Positions 20,370 to 49,170 of a stretch of DNA of 49,170 nt are shown here, one piece after another. The notes below the pieces were generated by a model. The model had not been told where the DNA came from and did no database searches. It worked only from the letters and a program-made list of their open reading frames with translations. The stretch lies in NCBI GenBank assembly GCA_016870915.1, contig VFZY01000016.1:1-49170 (forward strand). Direction: 5' to 3'. The stretch is from Acidobacteriota bacterium (GTDB taxonomy: Bacteria > Acidobacteriota > Terriglobia > Bryobacterales > Bryobacteraceae). How positions within the stretch are numbered: position 1 is the stretch's first letter; the number at the start of each line of letters is the position of its first letter. The translations under genes were made by a program, and so were the position numbers.

Positions 20370-20449
20370 GCGCAAAAAGGACTCGCTCCGGCCTTGCTTA
20401 AGCCGCTTGTTTCCCGATGCTTGGAGCCGCGCCGGAGCTGCTTTTGCGC
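20370..20449 (-). repeat. Dispersed palindromic element, copy A
   Basis: Read on the minus strand this 80-bp segment matches the units of the array at 45915-46463 in the blocks GCGCAAA, GCTCCGGCGCGGCTCCAA, GGGAAACAAGC, GGCCGGAGCGAGTCC and TTGCGC. The ends are inverted, so it can fold into a long hairpin. It begins 3 bases after the stop of the STAS gene and lies 150 bases upstream of the TPR gene, so it may act as a terminator for the STAS transcript. Confidence 0.85.
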
Positions 20450-21339: not shown

Positions 21340-21696
21340 CTAATGCGCCGGCCGCCGGCCATCTTCGAGTTTGGCGACCCGGTCCTGCAGCGCATGAATC
21401 TCCAACTCCAGGGCGTGAAGCGCGGCGGCATGAGTGCGCTGACGGGCCTCGTTCGGCGAAGCCCATTTGTGGAACTCCGTCAGGAGACTCGTTTCGACGC
21501 GCTCAATCTCGCCACGGACTTGCGCGACCTCGCCACGGACTTGCGCGACCTCGCCACGGACTTGTGTGATCTCGCCACGGACTTGTCCGATCTCGCCCTG
21601 AAACTGCCCGATTACGCCACGGATTTGCCCGATCTCGTCCCCGACTTGGCCGATCAGCCCCTCAATCCATTTTTTGTCAACTTGGGTTAGGCTCAT
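21340..21696 (-). CDS. Coiled-coil hypothetical protein with heptad repeats
   Basis: The product is 118 residues from the ATG at 21696 (127 from the ATG at 21723, which lacks a ribosome site). After SLTQVDKKWIEGLIGQ come about seven 7-residue units of the form GEVAQVR, encoded by 21-bp DNA repeats. The C-terminal half ETSLLTEFHKWASPNEARQR and LHALELEIHALQDRVAKLE resembles a hypothetical family I recall from Acidobacteria. A long parallel coiled coil is expected. No signal peptide or membrane segment is seen. The plus strand is also open, but only the minus frame has family-like ends. Function unknown. Confidence 0.75.
   Translation of the reverse strand: MSLTQVDKKWIEGLIGQVGDEIGQIRGVIGQFQGEIGQVRGEITQVRGEVAQVRGEVAQVRGEIERVETSLLTEFHKWASPNEARQRTHAAALHALELEIHALQDRVAKLEDGRRPAH
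21508..21654. repeat. Seven 21-bp tandem repeats inside the coiled-coil gene
   Basis: Seven consecutive 21-bp units start at 21508, 21529, 21550, 21571, 21592, 21613 and 21634 with a plus-strand consensus CTCGCCACGGACTTG followed by a variable GCGCGAC or GTCCGAT end. The first two are identical. Each codes one heptad on the minus strand. The identical outer units suggest recent duplication. Confidence 0.92.
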
Positions 21697-41329: not shown

Positions 41330-43077
41330 GTCGGTCCGATTCTGGCCGGCGTGGCGCAGTTCGCCGTCGCCAGACCATCCAGGTCGTAGGTCTGAGCGAA
41401 GCCCGTCATCGGGGTGATGCAGACGGTATAAGTGCCCGCCGGCAGGTTGCTGAACGTATAGATGCCGTTCGCCCCCGTCGTCTGAGTGGTCGTGTAGCCC
41501 GTAGGCAGGTTGGCGCCGCTGATGGTCGCCGTCCAGCCCGTCAGGCCAGGCTCACCGGAATCCTGAATGCCGTTACCGTTGGTATCGTTCCAGACCCGGT
41601 CGCCAATCGAACCGTTCGGACGGTAGCCGAAGTCGACATCCGTCGCGTTCTCACCCGCTGTGATGGTGCGCGTGGCGCAGTTCGCCGTCGCCAGACCATC
41701 CAGGTCGTAGGTCTGAGCGAAGCCCATCATCGGGGTGATGCAGACGGTATAAGTGCCCGCCGGCAGGTTGCTGAACGTATAGATGCCGTTCGCCCCCGTC
41801 GTCTGAGTGGTCGTGTAGCCCGTAGGCAGGTTGGCGCCACTGATAGTGGCCGTCCAGCCCGTCAGCCCAGGCTCACCGGAGTCCTGAATGCCGTTCCCGT
41901 TGGTGTCATTCCAAACCCGGTCGCCGATGGAACCGTTCAGACGGTAGCCGAAGTCGACATCCGTCGCGTTCTCGCCCGCCGTGATGGTGCGCGAGGCGCA
42001 GTTCGCCGTCGCCAGACCGTCCAGGTCATAGGTCTGGGTGTAGCTCGTCATCGGGGTGATGCAAACCGTGTAAGTGCCCGCCGGCAGGTTACTGAACGTA
42101 TAGATGCCGTTCGCCCCCGTCGTCTGAGTGGTCGTGTAGCCCGAAGGCAGGTTGGCGCCACTGATGGTCGCCGTCCAACCCGTCAGCCCAGGCTCACCGG
42201 AATCCTGGATGCCGTTCCCGTTGGTGTCGTTCCAGACCCGGTCGCCGATGGAAGCGTTCGGACGGTAGCCGAAGTCGACATCCGTCGCATTCTCACCCGC
42301 TGTGATGGTGCGCGTGGCGCAGTTCGCCGTCGCCAGACCATCCAGGTCGTAGGTCTGAGCGAAGCCCGTCATCGGGGTGATGCAGACCGTATAAGTGCCC
42401 GCCGGCAGGTCGCTGAACGTGTAGATACCGTTCGTCCCCGTCGTCTGCGTCGTCGTGTAGCCCGTTGGCAGGTTGGCGCCGCTGATGGTTGCCGTCCAGC
42501 CGGTCAGTCCAGGCTCACCGGAATCCTGAATGCCGTTCCCGTTGGTGTCGTTCCACACCCGGTCGCCAATCGAACCCAACGCAACGAACCCGAAATCGAT
42601 CGTCAGGTCCGAACTGTTGTCCAGCGGCAGCGTCACCACGAACAGGTTCGGATTGCTGTCGTTGCCGGCATTGCTCCCAGGAGCGTTGGCAATCGTCGGC
42701 ACAAACCCGGTGGGCGTAATCACTTCCACCTTGTAGGAACCCGGGCACAGCCCGCCGAAACCGTAAATCCCCGTGCCGGCGGCCGTGGTGGTCGTCTGCA
42801 ACACGGAATTGTCCATCGCATTCCGCAAGTTCAGCGTGACGTTGCCCAGCGGCAGTTCCAGCACATCCTGGATGCCATTCCCGTTGGCGTCATTCCAGAC
42901 GTAATTCCCAACTGAACCCGAGCACGGCGCCTTGTATCCGAAGTCGATCGTCAGGTTCGCTTCTCCCTCGGCCAGGATCACCGTCGCCGGCAACCCGTTG
43001 CTGTCGTTGCCCGCGTTGCTCCCCGGGGCATTCACCGTGGTGGGCGTGTAGCCCGGCGGCACGGTGGAGGCGTCCAC
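41227..43077 (-). CDS. Surface protein, segment 3 (B modules 4-8, near-identical repeats)
   Basis: After a first diverged module (GSVGNYVWNDANGNGIQDVL) this segment contains four almost identical 107-residue modules beginning SIGDRVWNDTNGNGIQDSGE and ending TAGENATDVDFGYR. They are 321-bp DNA repeats. The last module loses 13 bases before its ENATDVDFGYR-like end, so the frame changes to nonsense (PARIGPTWTSV). It is a fragment, not an independent protein. Confidence 0.7.
   Translation of the reverse strand: MDASTVPPGYTPTTVNAPGSNAGNDSNGLPATVILAEGEANLTIDFGYKAPCSGSVGNYVWNDANGNGIQDVLELPLGNVTLNLRNAMDNSVLQTTTTAAGTGIYGFGGLCPGSYKVEVITPTGFVPTIANAPGSNAGNDSNPNLFVVTLPLDNSSDLTIDFGFVALGSIGDRVWNDTNGNGIQDSGEPGLTGWTATISGANLPTGYTTTQTTGTNGIYTFSDLPAGTYTVCITPMTGFAQTYDLDGLATANCATRTITAGENATDVDFGYRPNASIGDRVWNDTNGNGIQDSGEPGLTGWTATISGANLPSGYTTTQTTGANGIYTFSNLPAGTYTVCITPMTSYTQTYDLDGLATANCASRTITAGENATDVDFGYRLNGSIGDRVWNDTNGNGIQDSGEPGLTGWTATISGANLPTGYTTTQTTGANGIYTFSNLPAGTYTVCITPMMGFAQTYDLDGLATANCATRTITAGENATDVDFGYRPNGSIGDRVWNDTNGNGIQDSGEPGLTGWTATISGANLPTGYTTTQTTGANGIYTFSNLPAGTYTVCITPMTGFAQTYDLDGLATANCATPARIGPTWTSVTGSRSARLVIVCGTTWMPTASRRRPANPV
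41330..42582. repeat. Four tandem 321-bp units in the surface protein gene
   Basis: The same GGTCGCC word (plus strand) recurs at 41598, 41919, 42240 and 42561, a strict period of 321 bp (107 codons). The units differ at only a few positions, mainly third codon positions and single residues such as Thr/Ala and Ser/Asn. The fourth (41287 end) is shortened by the 13-bp loss. Such identity among otherwise diverged modules indicates recent tandem duplication. Confidence 0.92.
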
Positions 43078-44689: not shown

Positions 44690-44770
44690 GCACAAAGGCC
44701 GCTCCGGCCCGGCTCCAAAACAGCCGGAAACACCCAGCTGAGCAAGAACCGGAGCGAGTCCGTTTTGCGC
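44690..44770 (+). repeat. Dispersed palindromic element, copy B
   Basis: This 81-bp segment begins GCACAAAGGCCGCTCCGGCC and ends CCGGAGCGAGTCC then GTTTTGCGC, matching the array units; the middle (GGCTCCAAAACAGCCGGAAAC) is diverged. It lies 60 bases beyond the stop of the PEP-CTERM-like gene and about 100 bases upstream of the surface protein start, on the same transcription path. It may act as a terminator between them. Confidence 0.85.
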
Positions 44771-44830: not shown

Positions 44831-45442
44831 CTACCGCGCGAACCGGCGCAGAGCCACCAGCGAACCGGCAGCCAGCACCAGGAACGCCGTGCCCGGCTCG
44901 GAGACGCCCGTGCTGGCAACGTCGATGGTCACGCCGCTAAAGCTGAAATCGTCCCCGAAATGGGCAGCGAAACCCGGACCGGCGATCACGATGCCGACCT
45001 GCGGGACGAACAGGCTCTGGAGACTGCCGCCCGTGGCGGTCCCGCGGAACTCAAAGGGCGCGGAGGGGCTTGGGCCATCCACAAACCCGAACGCGGTCAC
45101 GATACCGGACAGCAGCGTCGTGAAACCGGCTCCCACATCACCCGATATCGAGAAAGTGCCGCCGCTCGCGTGCAGAGCGCCCGTTCCCGTCAGAGAAGCA
45201 TTCAGGACGAACGACGCTCCCATGCCGGTGACCGGGATGAAATTGAACATCGGGTCAATATATAGGACGGGTGTGCCGGTGACGCTCAAAGGGTTCGGAC
45301 CCGCCGGGTCCACAAAACTGTAGCTCGCCGAGACTGCGGCGATCTGGATGTCCGGCAGCCCCAAGGTCAGGTTGAGCGGGGTAGCAGACGCTCCAATGGC
45401 GCCAAGAACCACGCCGACGGTGATTGGAATAATGCGTTTCAT
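44831..45442 (-). CDS. Exported protein with PEP-CTERM-like anchor
   Basis: The product is 203 residues from the ATG at 45442; the open frame extends upstream into AT-rich promoter DNA. A signal peptide (KRIIPITVGVVLGAIGASAT) precedes a beta-rich body (SVTGTPVLYIDPMFNFIPV, LSGIVTAFGFVDGPSPSAPF). The C terminus VSEPGTAFLVLAAGSLVAL followed by RRFAR resembles the PEP-CTERM sorting tail, with SEPG in place of PEP. Such tails are cleaved by exosortase on the way to the surface; no exosortase gene is in the window. Body function is unknown. Confidence 0.8.
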   Translation of the reverse strand: MKRIIPITVGVVLGAIGASATPLNLTLGLPDIQIAAVSASYSFVDPAGPNPLSVTGTPVLYIDPMFNFIPVTGMGASFVLNASLTGTGALHASGGTFSISGDVGAGFTTLLSGIVTAFGFVDGPSPSAPFEFRGTATGGSLQSLFVPQVGIVIAGPGFAAHFGDDFSFSGVTIDVASTGVSEPGTAFLVLAAGSLVALRRFAR

Positions 45443-45765
45443 GTGCGTAACAAGCCTCTTTTCTGTCGAGCGCCAGGATCTGAATTTAAAAGTATTGAAT
45501 TCCTTGGCGTGCTCAACATCGTAAGATTGGCACGCGCCGTTTCCTGGCAGCAAGAGAATGTTGACCGCCAAACGCGATATGAGAGATCTAGTACTTTCTG
45601 GCTGTTAATTCGGAAAGACGACACCTAAGCCATTCCCCGTCAATGAGATGGACGGATATCTGGATGTGTGTTGACGGGTGCGGCTGTGGTCTCTGTTCCG
45701 CTTTCAGGGAAAAATATACTCGGGTTGCGGCGTTACGCCCCCTGCAACCGCGTGCCACGGCCATA
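45443..45765. other. Intergenic region upstream of the PEP-CTERM-like gene
   Basis: This 323-base stretch is richer in A and T than its surroundings at 45470-45720 and probably holds the promoter of the minus-strand gene. No clear protein frame, tRNA or known RNA was seen. Short open frames on both strands have no family-like features. It ends where the DUF3857 pseudogene fragment begins. Confidence 0.5.
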
Positions 45766-46533
45766 TCGATGAACTGCCTGACGCAGTCAAACTGCAATCG
45801 CCCTACGGCGCTTCGTAGCCCGCTGGGATCACAAGGACGGCGCCGTCACGCCGTGGCGCAACTGGCACTTCCCCCGCTCCTGGTTCCGGCCTCCGAATGC
45901 CCGCAACTGAAGAAGCGCAAAGGCCGCTCCGGCGCGGCTCCAAACGTCTAGGAACAAGCGACTTAACGGAGAGCCGGAGCGAGTCCGTCTTGCGCGGTTC
46001 CTCAACAGCGCAAAGGCCGCTCCGGCGCGGCTCCAAACGTCCAGTAAACAAGCGACTCAACGGAGAGCCGGAGCGAGTCCGTCTTGCGCGGTTCCTCAAC
46101 AGCGCAAAGGCCGCAACCGGCGCGGCTCCAAACGTCCAGAAACAAGCGACTTAACGGAGAGCCGGAGCGAGTCCGTCTTGCGCGGTTCGTCAACAGCGCA
46201 AAGGCCGCTCCGGCGCGGCTCCAAACGTCCAGGAACAAGCGACTTAACGGAGAGCCGGAGCGAGTCCGTCTTGCGCGGTTCGTCAACAGCGCAAAGGCCG
46301 CTCCGGCGCGGCTCCAAACGTCCAGAAACAAGCGACTTAACGGAGAGCCGGAGCGAGTCCGTCTTGCGCGGTTCCTCAACAGCGCAAAGGCCGCTCCGGC
46401 GCGGCTCCAAACGTCCAGAAACAAGCGACTTAACGGAGGAGCCGGAGCGAGTCCGTCTTGCGCGGTTCGTCAACAGCTCATGGACATCATCCCGGCCGCC
46501 TTCAGGCAGCCCGTGGTCCTGATGGTACCGTAG
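45766..46533 (+). pseudogene. Decayed 3' fragment of the DUF3857 gene, split by the repeat array
   Basis: 45766-45914 matches 38646-38797 nearly base for base (e.g. TCGATGAACTGCC, AAACTGCAATCGCCCTACGG, GATCACAAGGACGGCGCCGT), with a lost base and an in-frame TAG at the segment GGCGCTTCGTAGCCCGC. It stops at CTGAAGAAG. 46477-46533 resumes exactly where the parent continues (TCATGGACA, CAGCCCGTGGTCCTG, ending in TAG) and runs to the parental stop. The six-unit array lies between. It is a broken duplicate, not expressed as a full protein. Confidence 0.88.
45915..46476 (+). repeat. Tandem array of six palindromic repeat units
   Basis: Six units start at 45915, 46008, 46102, 46196, 46289 and 46382, with spacing of 93-94 bases. 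Each has an element of about 81 bp (GCGCAAAGGCCGCTCCGGCG at one end, GCCGGAGCGAGTCCGTCTTG then CGC at the other) and a spacer of about 12 bp, GGTTC(C/G)TCAACA. The ends are imperfect inverted repeats: GCGCAA and GCTCCGGC pair with TTGCGC and GCCGGAGC, with a central region ending GACTTAACGGAGA. Units are nearly identical. Single copies occur at 20370-20449 and 44690-44770. Confidence 0.95.
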
Positions 46534-46598: not shown

Positions 46599-47117
46599 AT
46601 GTTTACGGTGGCACTCAGTCCGGGTTTGGGGCTGACGCGGGAAGCGGACTTCGATGCCCTGTTCCGTGCCCATGAGCGGGCCGTGCTGCGCACCGCCTAC
46701 CGTGTCCTCGGCAACTGGGCCGATGCCGAAGATGTCGCCCAGGAGGCCTTTGTCCGGCTTCACCGCCAGGCGCGGCACCTGGAAGGCCCCGCCGTCGCGG
46801 CCTGGCTGTATCGTGTGACCGTGAACCTGTGCCTTGACCGTGTCCGCTCCCCATGGCGGCCCGCCGAACTGGTCGAAACCCCGAGTGGCGAGCCTGGCGC
46901 CGAAGCCGAGTCCATCCGGCTCGACCAGCAACGCCGGCTCATGGGCGCCCTCGGCAAACTCGCCCCGCGCGAACGCGCCGCCATCGTGCTTCGCGAGATC
47001 GAAGGTCTCACAACGGCCGAAGTGGCGGCCGCGCTCGGCTCCTCGGAATCCACGGTTCGCAGCCAGATCTCGAAGGCGATGGACAAACTGGCAGCCATCC
47101 TGAAAGGCCGCGTATGA
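46599..47117 (+). CDS. ECF sigma-70-family RNA polymerase sigma factor
   Basis: The product is 172 residues, standard for an ECF sigma. Region 2 covers about 18-85, with DAEDVAQEAFVRLHR (42-56) and VAAWLYRVTVNLCLD; region 4 covers about 115-168, with KLAPRERAAIVLREIEGLTT and the helix-turn-helix AEVAAALGSSESTVRSQISK. Regions 1 and 3 are absent. The stop overlaps the start of the anti-sigma gene (ATGA). A short gap with GGATAGACA before the ATG provides a weak ribosome site. It is probably autoregulated with its partner. Confidence 0.93.
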   Translation: MFTVALSPGLGLTREADFDALFRAHERAVLRTAYRVLGNWADAEDVAQEAFVRLHRQARHLEGPAVAAWLYRVTVNLCLDRVRSPWRPAELVETPSGEPGAEAESIRLDQQRRLMGALGKLAPRERAAIVLREIEGLTTAEVAAALGSSESTVRSQISKAMDKLAAILKGRV

Positions 47118-48971: not shown

Positions 48972-49040
48972 GGAAAGCCGCATTCTCTGGCATAACTGAT
49001 TTTTCTAGTAAAAGTTGTGCGAAGAGAGGAGCGGCTTTCC
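48972..49040 (+). promoter_or_regulatory. Inverted repeat in front of the transposase start
   Basis: GGAAAGCCGC (48972-48981) pairs perfectly with GCGGCTTTCC (49031-49040) across 49 bases. The second arm lies between the GAGAGGA ribosome-like site and the transposase ATG at 49044. A transcript entering from outside would fold and may hide the start; one starting inside the loop would not. Confidence 0.55.
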
Positions 49041-49043
49041 CCT

Positions 49044-49170
49044 ATGACAGAGTGTAGCCAATCAGAGTTCGAGTTTGGCCAACAGGGACGGCGCCAGGTG
49101 AAGGCGGGATTCGACGGCGGGACGATCAGTAGCGACGGTGGCGCGTTGCTGCTGCGCGAAGTGAACCGCA
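49044..49170 (+). CDS. IS1380-family transposase, N-terminal part (partial)
   Basis: The first 42 residues run to the window end. The opening MTECSQSEFEFGQQGRRQVK is followed by AGFDGGTISSDGGALLLREV, the conserved N-terminal motif of IS1380-type DDE transposases, in which the SDGGALLL segment carries a catalytic-region Asp. The rest is outside. The ribosome site (AGAGGAG) lies at about 49024-49031. The insertion probably marks a rearranged, accessory end of the region. Confidence 0.85.
   Translation, partial: MTECSQSEFEFGQQGRRQVKAGFDGGTISSDGGALLLREVNR

Follow-up and report, generated by a model that had tools for sequence, protein, structure and literature searches.

A 93-nucleotide palindromic unit stacked head to tail in a Bryobacterales genome is probably a non-autonomous mobile element

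We found a six-unit tandem array of a bulged palindrome in a 49,170-nucleotide stretch of DNA from an Acidobacteriota bacterium of the Bryobacterales (contig VFZY01000016.1, hereafter the window). We read it, with a probability of about 0.7, as copies of a palindromic, non-autonomous mobile element that have stacked locally. The best reading of the copies in this and related genomes is that they form a new non-autonomous family resembling REPs, MITEs and Rickettsia palindromic elements (RPE) in behaviour.

Tandem Repeats Finder places the array at 45914-46477 (period 93, 6.0 copies, 96 % matches, 1 % indels, score 1045), which corresponds to a 93-94 bp unit repeated six times head to tail at 45915-46475, the unit lengths being, in ascending coordinates, 93, 94, 94, 93, 93 and about 94 nt. 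The six unit starts given by the first-pass annotation are correct. The informative strand is the minus strand, GCGCAAGACGG...CCTTTGCGC, and in that orientation unit 1 (46382..46475) consists of the core hairpin (46382-46463/4) and the left 12 nt (46464-46475), followed on the same strand by units 2 (46289..46381, 93 nt), 3 (46196..46288, 93 nt), 4 (46102..46195, 94 nt), 5 (46008..46101, 94 nt) and 6 (45915..46007, 93 nt). Unit 4 has CCGGTTGCGG as its right arm, not CCGGAGCGG, and a weaker hairpin, and the right end of unit 6 adjoins unrelated DNA (GCGC|TTCTTCAG, minus strand). The window also holds two diverged solo copies, one on the minus strand about 1.1 kb from the array (44690..44770, 77.3 bits with our mixed model, R2) and one on the plus strand (20370..20449, 62.4 bits).

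The array is flanked by a minus-strand ORF at 44831-45571, for which Pfam gave nothing and whose product, judged by eye, looks like a PEP-CTERM protein, and by an ECF sigma factor gene at 46599-47117 with Pfam matches to Sigma70_r2 and r4. Two other tandem repeats were observed in the window, one of 321 bp (3.8 copies, 41349-42576) within a large minus-strand ORF that is SdrD-B-like by eye, and one of 21 bp (7.1 copies, 21506-21655). A transposase-like ORF, which we take to be IS1380-like, runs off the window end. Contigs C27 and C40 share about 400 starting bases and C12 starts with part of them; this shared contig-start sequence, present in the window at 49017-49169, is a multi-copy element that seems to break the assembly.

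On the minus strand the array core, GCGCAAGACGGACTCGCTCCGGC...GCCGGAGCGGCCTTTGCGC, forms a single long bulged hairpin, with RNA folding energies of -38.5 to -39.9 kcal/mol in five of the six units and -33.0 kcal/mol in the unit at 46102. Every core folds into one imperfect hairpin, and the unit that we compared with shuffles has an RNA z-score of -2.38 (3 of 200 shuffles equally good). Folding with DNA parameters and flanks gave no advantage over shuffles (z -0.64, 47/200), so that folding energy by itself lends little weight, and the strong, main support for the structure is covariation. An inverted-repeat search (9-base seeds, at most 120 bases between arms) returned no pair; the arms are bulged.

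Across 30 copies one hairpin architecture is kept through compensatory changes, running from an outer stem of 7 bp through an AC bulge and GG/CC to an inner stem, also of 7 bp, that is lineage-specific. Of 480 cells, 93.5 % are paired, whereas shuffles reach 78.7 % and slid controls 38-56 %; the first percentage leans towards the named structure, which was taken from folds of the same 30 copies. Two-sided changes do not depend on how the structure was named; they occur at 10 of 16 pairs, and the covariation score was attained by none of 500 shuffles. By one measure of covariation out of five, the count of further pair types, the copies were not unusual (19 against 17.1 in shuffles, with 93 of 500 shuffles reaching 19). 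The outer pair turns from G-C to C-G in 5/30 rows and position 6 from A-U to C-G in 11/30, in a count that retains the rows of genome G049 and some of G013 in which the inner stem is out of register. When both inner arms come from one copy they pair at -23.7 kcal/mol (n=41); a left arm set against a right arm from a different genome gives -18.1 kcal/mol (n=369), and 9 % of such mixed combinations reach the same-copy median. The outer covarying stem amounts to terminal inverted repeats of the kind by which a MITE is recognised.

The extent of the mobile unit comes from empty sites. We joined the 140-nt flanks of 23 copies from genomes G131, G127 and G155 and searched them in the same-genus genomes G031, G023 and G011. 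Junction-spanning alignments were obtained at four loci, L260 (91 % identity), L259 (80 %), L228 (70 % in G031, 68 % in G023) and L250 (70 %); locus L261 gave a two-piece match with a readable left junction, and the other 18 of the 23 flanks had no spanning match and were uninformative. At L260 (G155:C10 against G011:C207) the query measures 281 and the subject 268, the occupied site thus being longer by the core plus 13 nt, and L228, in the xseA gene of G131, gives the same difference (282 against 269) with both G031 and G023. The net insertion at these two loci is the 80-nt core plus 13 nt, or 93 nt. L259 and L250 depart from 93 by a further 2-3 nt, which we take for ordinary indels, exact edges at 68-80 % identity being less certain than at L260. 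Since 93 is also the commonest array period (21/36, with 94 in 7/36), the 12-nt "spacer" belongs to the mobile unit, which consists of about 12 nt (consensus YTTRAGGAAC.C), the 80-81 nt bulged hairpin and 1 nt. The description of the array as a core of about 81 bp separated by a 12-bp spacer was thus right about the spacing and wrong in leaving the spacer outside the element. A CRISPR array had been excluded, and we likewise reject it on anatomy, as the spacers are near-constant parts of the unit and are not unique.

Insertion occurs at sites like 5'-CT|TC-3'. The junction is CT|TC at L260, L228, L236 and L261, TT|TC at L259 and CA|CG at L250, so this motif reflects six junctions, of which two depart from it and two (L236 and L261) come without a full empty-site alignment, the one at L236 being deduced from the reading frame of the gene. 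In G131, CT directly precedes the unit at 16 of 22 outer left ends. The six junctions permit a direct repeat of 0-4 nt, and no deletion was resolved at them. A target-site duplication of 8-12 nt, hinted at by TGATAAAC on both sides of locus L012, found no support at the empty sites and was discarded. We infer the transposition step itself from insertion polymorphism because no enzyme was found.

Copies lie in frame in five genes: xseA (L228, Exonuc_VII_L), a reverse transcriptase gene (L250, G127:C254, RVT_1) and a gene for a DPPIV_N-type protein (L260), each with an empty site, and a hicB-like gene (L236, HicB_lk_antitox) and a long unnamed ORF (L136), both without one. Our automatic in-gene filter, based on a detector (150 copies) that admitted some false ones, returned L136, L250 and the array at L256 together with some false or antisense cases; L228, L236 and L260 were found by reading. 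Compared with PDB 8txr, the XseA protein has 35 query residues opposite 4 chain residues, a 31-residue insertion. The number of open frames per unit is 3.83-5.00 compared to 3.21-4.87 in dinucleotide shuffles and is the higher of the two in each of the six genomes that carry five copies or more. This excess is small, and we therefore rejected a "designed" coding element; with open frames barely above shuffles, the in-frame copies look like survivors of harmless insertion. Most copies look intergenic according to an ORF caller that was trained on the window only, is rough for other genomes and whose gene calls are not annotation.

A coding-like sense ORF stops 4-6 nt before the core in 7 of 29 own-genome arrays and solo copies, a raw count on the sense frame alone. 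At L110 (G000:C22:41329-41409) the N-terminus of a CarboxypepD_reg protein resembles a signal peptide (MFPGVWSRAGAALALLALSVAAQD), and both its ATG and its hydrophobic stretch come from a diverged copy, and similar read-through was seen by eye at L105, L029 and L095. Donation of signal peptides as a rule was rejected since few copies show it.

The first-pass annotation had envisaged copies beyond the array, and the possibility that the host genome holds only these six is excluded. A 186-base query matched 43 places in the genome by BLAST, and at E<=0.01 a covariance model built from 25 copies (R1) gave 49 matches, including the two solo copies of the window; the matches are solo or in arrays, on both strands and on many contigs. 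R1 matched 11 of 101 genomes, own included, and the copies in relatives keep the ends and have a different inner stem. The search of related genomes that had been proposed for the unit was also productive: with R2, and the best 23 matches per genome, 32 of 201 genomes (own and relatives) matched, namely the host, 30 members of its family and G100 of the same class. For comparison, a phylum-wide even draw with stricter filters and the best 11 matches per genome gave two of 396 genomes, the host and one of its family. Within the reach of R2, the element is mainly a trait of the host's taxonomic family (Bryobacterales/Acidobacteriota). In G131 an identical 80-nt core is present in 9 of 20 distinct copies, taken from the best of the R2 list, which suggests a recent burst.

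The array of the window had no match in plasmids and phages. Viral contigs yielded nothing to one exact pattern, which fits the left-end versions of relatives and not the host's own. Rfam returned nothing for the window or for five sample loci, and the element is not named in the titles and abstract openings of the literature that we searched, a scope that stops short of subscription journals and supplements. Both results agree with the view that the sequence belongs to no named family.

All 39 pairs of neighbouring copies within 300 bp of each other share a strand (both strands scanned), those pairs that arose by duplication not being independent. We counted arrays, polarity and loop features with a detector that demands exact 4-nt end complementarity and so drops diverged copies. 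Among the 26 distinct arrays at the loci collected, 9 are heterotypic, with neighbours less than 75 % identical, and yet 31 of the 36 spacers measure 12 or 13 nt. Subtypes stacked in register cannot result from one-unit slippage and require insertion beside an existing copy. On the other hand, the units of the window array and of those on C40, C322 and C325 of the same genome are 95-99 % identical, with spacers that are near-identical within an array and differ between arrays, so that local duplication is likely too. Arrays thus grow by insertion beside copies and, likely, by local duplication. The near-homotypic window array could have arisen by tandem duplication alone. The earlier suggestion of a REP/MITE-type element that amplifies in place holds for the palindromic type and for the near-identical arrays; it fails for the heterotypic ones.

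Variation in the left 12 nt is about tenfold that in the core (22/240 against 15/1600 positions, P 2e-11, in 20 G131 copies that are related and hence not independent), and the outcome was the same whether copies were picked by their exact first 29 core bases or by a loose finder. Simply cutting and joining a fixed 93-mer would leave this variability unexplained. Except in G155, the loop tends to carry the left end's reverse complement: AACTC occurs with GAGT 12 times and never with GTGT, while AACAC occurs with GTGT 26 times and with GAGT 9 times (P 6e-6), in a table that takes in 47 of 169 related copies and leaves 122 outside. The longest complementary run is 5.2 within a copy, compared to 4.6 when the left end comes from a different genome and 3.7 when the loop is shuffled. 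The complementarity is suggestive only, and may be linked to the variability of the left end, as a guide-like pairing or a second helix.

We hypothesize that the folded single-stranded hairpin, with its fixed AC bulge, would be recognised by a trans-acting cleavage and joining enzyme encoded away from the copies read, single-strand recognition being suggested by the hairpin alone. The junction beside each copy (GCGCT|TTT) would recreate the preferred target, so that new copies would stack beside old ones in the same orientation, and near-identical arrays would then lengthen through ordinary tandem duplication of the 93-bp unit. It is conceivable, as a tentative elaboration, that the gene-less 93-nt unit is a self-addressing hairpin of single-stranded DNA, excised as a folded strand or circle by an enzyme other than the known Y1, Y2 or IS110 ones and integrated at CT|T with its own ends as preferred targets. 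Such a unit would build polar multi-subtype arrays comparable to empty integron cassettes. Cleavage may be guided by the loop, and the higher variability of the left end would follow from its being made anew with every insertion.

No enzyme that could be the mover was found in searches for Y1, IS91-type Y2 and IS110 transposases or among the neighbour genes of the copies read. An all-against-all comparison of 535 ORF pieces gave a TonB-receptor-like group as the only neighbour recurrent in many genomes (9), which we took for an abundant paralogue group and rejected as a helper. IS91-type Y2_Tnp is present in 5 of 14 genomes and has no match in the host; IS110 (PF02371) is present in 3 of 7, with one match in the host and none in G155, G127, G148 and G123. 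Of 21 distinct element-bearing genomes, 18 have a Y1 match (10/11 and 9/11, with G034 in both sets); the three without one are G031 (98 % complete), G148 (92 %) and G123 (71 %). Any single absence is weak because several genomes are incomplete; taken together, the Y1, Y2 and IS110 absences argue against any one of these families as the common mover.

One explanation for the missing enzyme is that the unit is the MITE of an insertion sequence with another transposase (IS91-type Y2, IS110 or DDE) whose full-length copy was lost or went unrecognised, which we regard as possible though doubtful. IS91 targets GAAC and IS110/IS621 have a CT core; the clean insertion with GAAC beside the hairpin recalls the former, CT at both junctions the latter, and the host does have its one IS110-type match. 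The patchy presence of Y2 and IS110 speaks against this explanation, as do the 37 exact GCGCAARACGGA sites in the host genome: those viewed by eye, which were not all of them, contained no longer gene-bearing element, one site, on C200, being an odd variant.

Alternatively, a resident Y1 HUH enzyme (RAYT/TnpA-REP) may move the unit, which would then be an atypical REP of unusual length, in the manner of class 3 TnpA_Y1; we consider this rather unlikely. The imperfect bulged hairpin, the short target and the absence of a resolved target-site duplication would fit, as would the wide occurrence of Y1. Class 3 TnpA_Y1 is the nearest published lead: in the part of the source that concerns Acidobacteria, some 600 associated hairpins are described in Solibacter usitatus, high in copy number and outside the GTAG type (PMC6006769), and the likeness extends to the phylum, the copy number and the atypical hairpin. 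However, three genomes hold copies without a Y1 match, and the REP-associated helper that the first-pass annotation had suggested looking for did not emerge. The single Y1_Tnp gene of the host has no element copy in the surrounding 2.1 kb, and of 74 Y1 loci read 73 showed none, the exception being L189 (G041:C20), where a variant copy lies 58 bp upstream of the Y1 gene; reversed sequences, used as a control, produced 3 chance hits among the first 53 loci, and the detector, which recovers 7 of the 8 window copies, can miss some. These loci comprise 53 (own, 13 database relatives and 39 of 41 other places) and 21 from 22 places, some overlapping. Several Y1 genes carry another flanking palindrome instead: at L031 (G000:C320) and L032-L036, from Acidobacteria and a Verrucomicrobiia MAG, CTCCCTTACGGTCGCGGCTC or something near it flanks the gene and is probably its own REP. 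At L189:1870-2500, downstream of the Y1 gene, we observed a repeat series with the palindrome CGCACGTCAGGATGACGTGCG, perhaps the own REP of that gene.

It is unlikely, in our view, that no dedicated enzyme exists and that errors of host replication and repair (template switching at hairpins, gene conversion, tandem slippage) produced the copies. The lack of a helper, the near-identical local arrays with array-specific spacers and a left end more variable than the core would be consistent with it; a net gain of 93 nt at sites that are unrelated and lie in separate genes, and in-register heterotypic arrays of strict polarity, are unexpected of slippage. A structured RNA or terminator with a host function, multiplied by duplication, is very improbable, since the covarying hairpin and the sense ORFs that end just before the core in its favour are set against an Rfam search without match, the absence of a long T-run behind the hairpin in those copies that were read, insertions within xseA and other genes, and a patchy presence with bursts.

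Like MITEs, such as those of IS200/IS605 or IS91, the element is short, non-autonomous and cleanly inserted; it differs in having no autonomous partner found, no clear target-site duplication and a habit of inserting beside copies of its own family. Integron attC sites, which are folded and bear unpaired bases on one arm, are likewise arrayed head to tail, and they have paired AAC/GTT R boxes at the base of the hairpin. We rejected this identity as there are no cassette genes and the left AAC faces a right flank of TTYTGA or variable sequence, so that no AAC/GTT pair exists. With REPs, REPINs and BIMEs it shares dispersed, mostly intergenic palindromes near gene ends that are sometimes clustered, whereas its consensus unit lacks GTAG/CTAC and a terminal CGTC, its hairpin measures 80-81 nt and is not a 20-40 bp palindrome, and, unlike in a REPtron, no RAYT linkage was found (1/74 Y1 loci, none seen at the host's own Y1 gene). 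REPs are, in the relevant part of one account, mainly head-to-head dimers (PMC3733652), whereas all 39 neighbour pairs here are head to tail. In the Solibacter genome most identified repeats are below 50-100 nt, and none is named like the element in the relevant passages of that report (PMC3174227).

Rickettsia palindromic elements are, in the part of the source that describes them, palindromes of roughly 100-150 bp spread through a lineage and in frame inside protein genes (PMC10969869). By this description our element is alike in being palindromic and in frame in protein genes; it differs in that most of its copies look intergenic, its arrays are polar and in register, its open frames barely exceed shuffles and its hosts belong to another bacterial group.

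If the reading as a mobile element is true, the Bryobacterales would harbour a miniature element that has no known mover, whose 93-nt unit is defined, for which genomes of the same genus offer empty sites, and which shows recent bursts of identical copies and the stacking of different subtypes in register. It would thus be a tractable case for finding a new transposition enzyme or mechanism. In-frame insertion of a palindrome into conserved genes such as xseA would then occur far from Rickettsia, and protein change driven by palindromes would not be a rickettsial curiosity.
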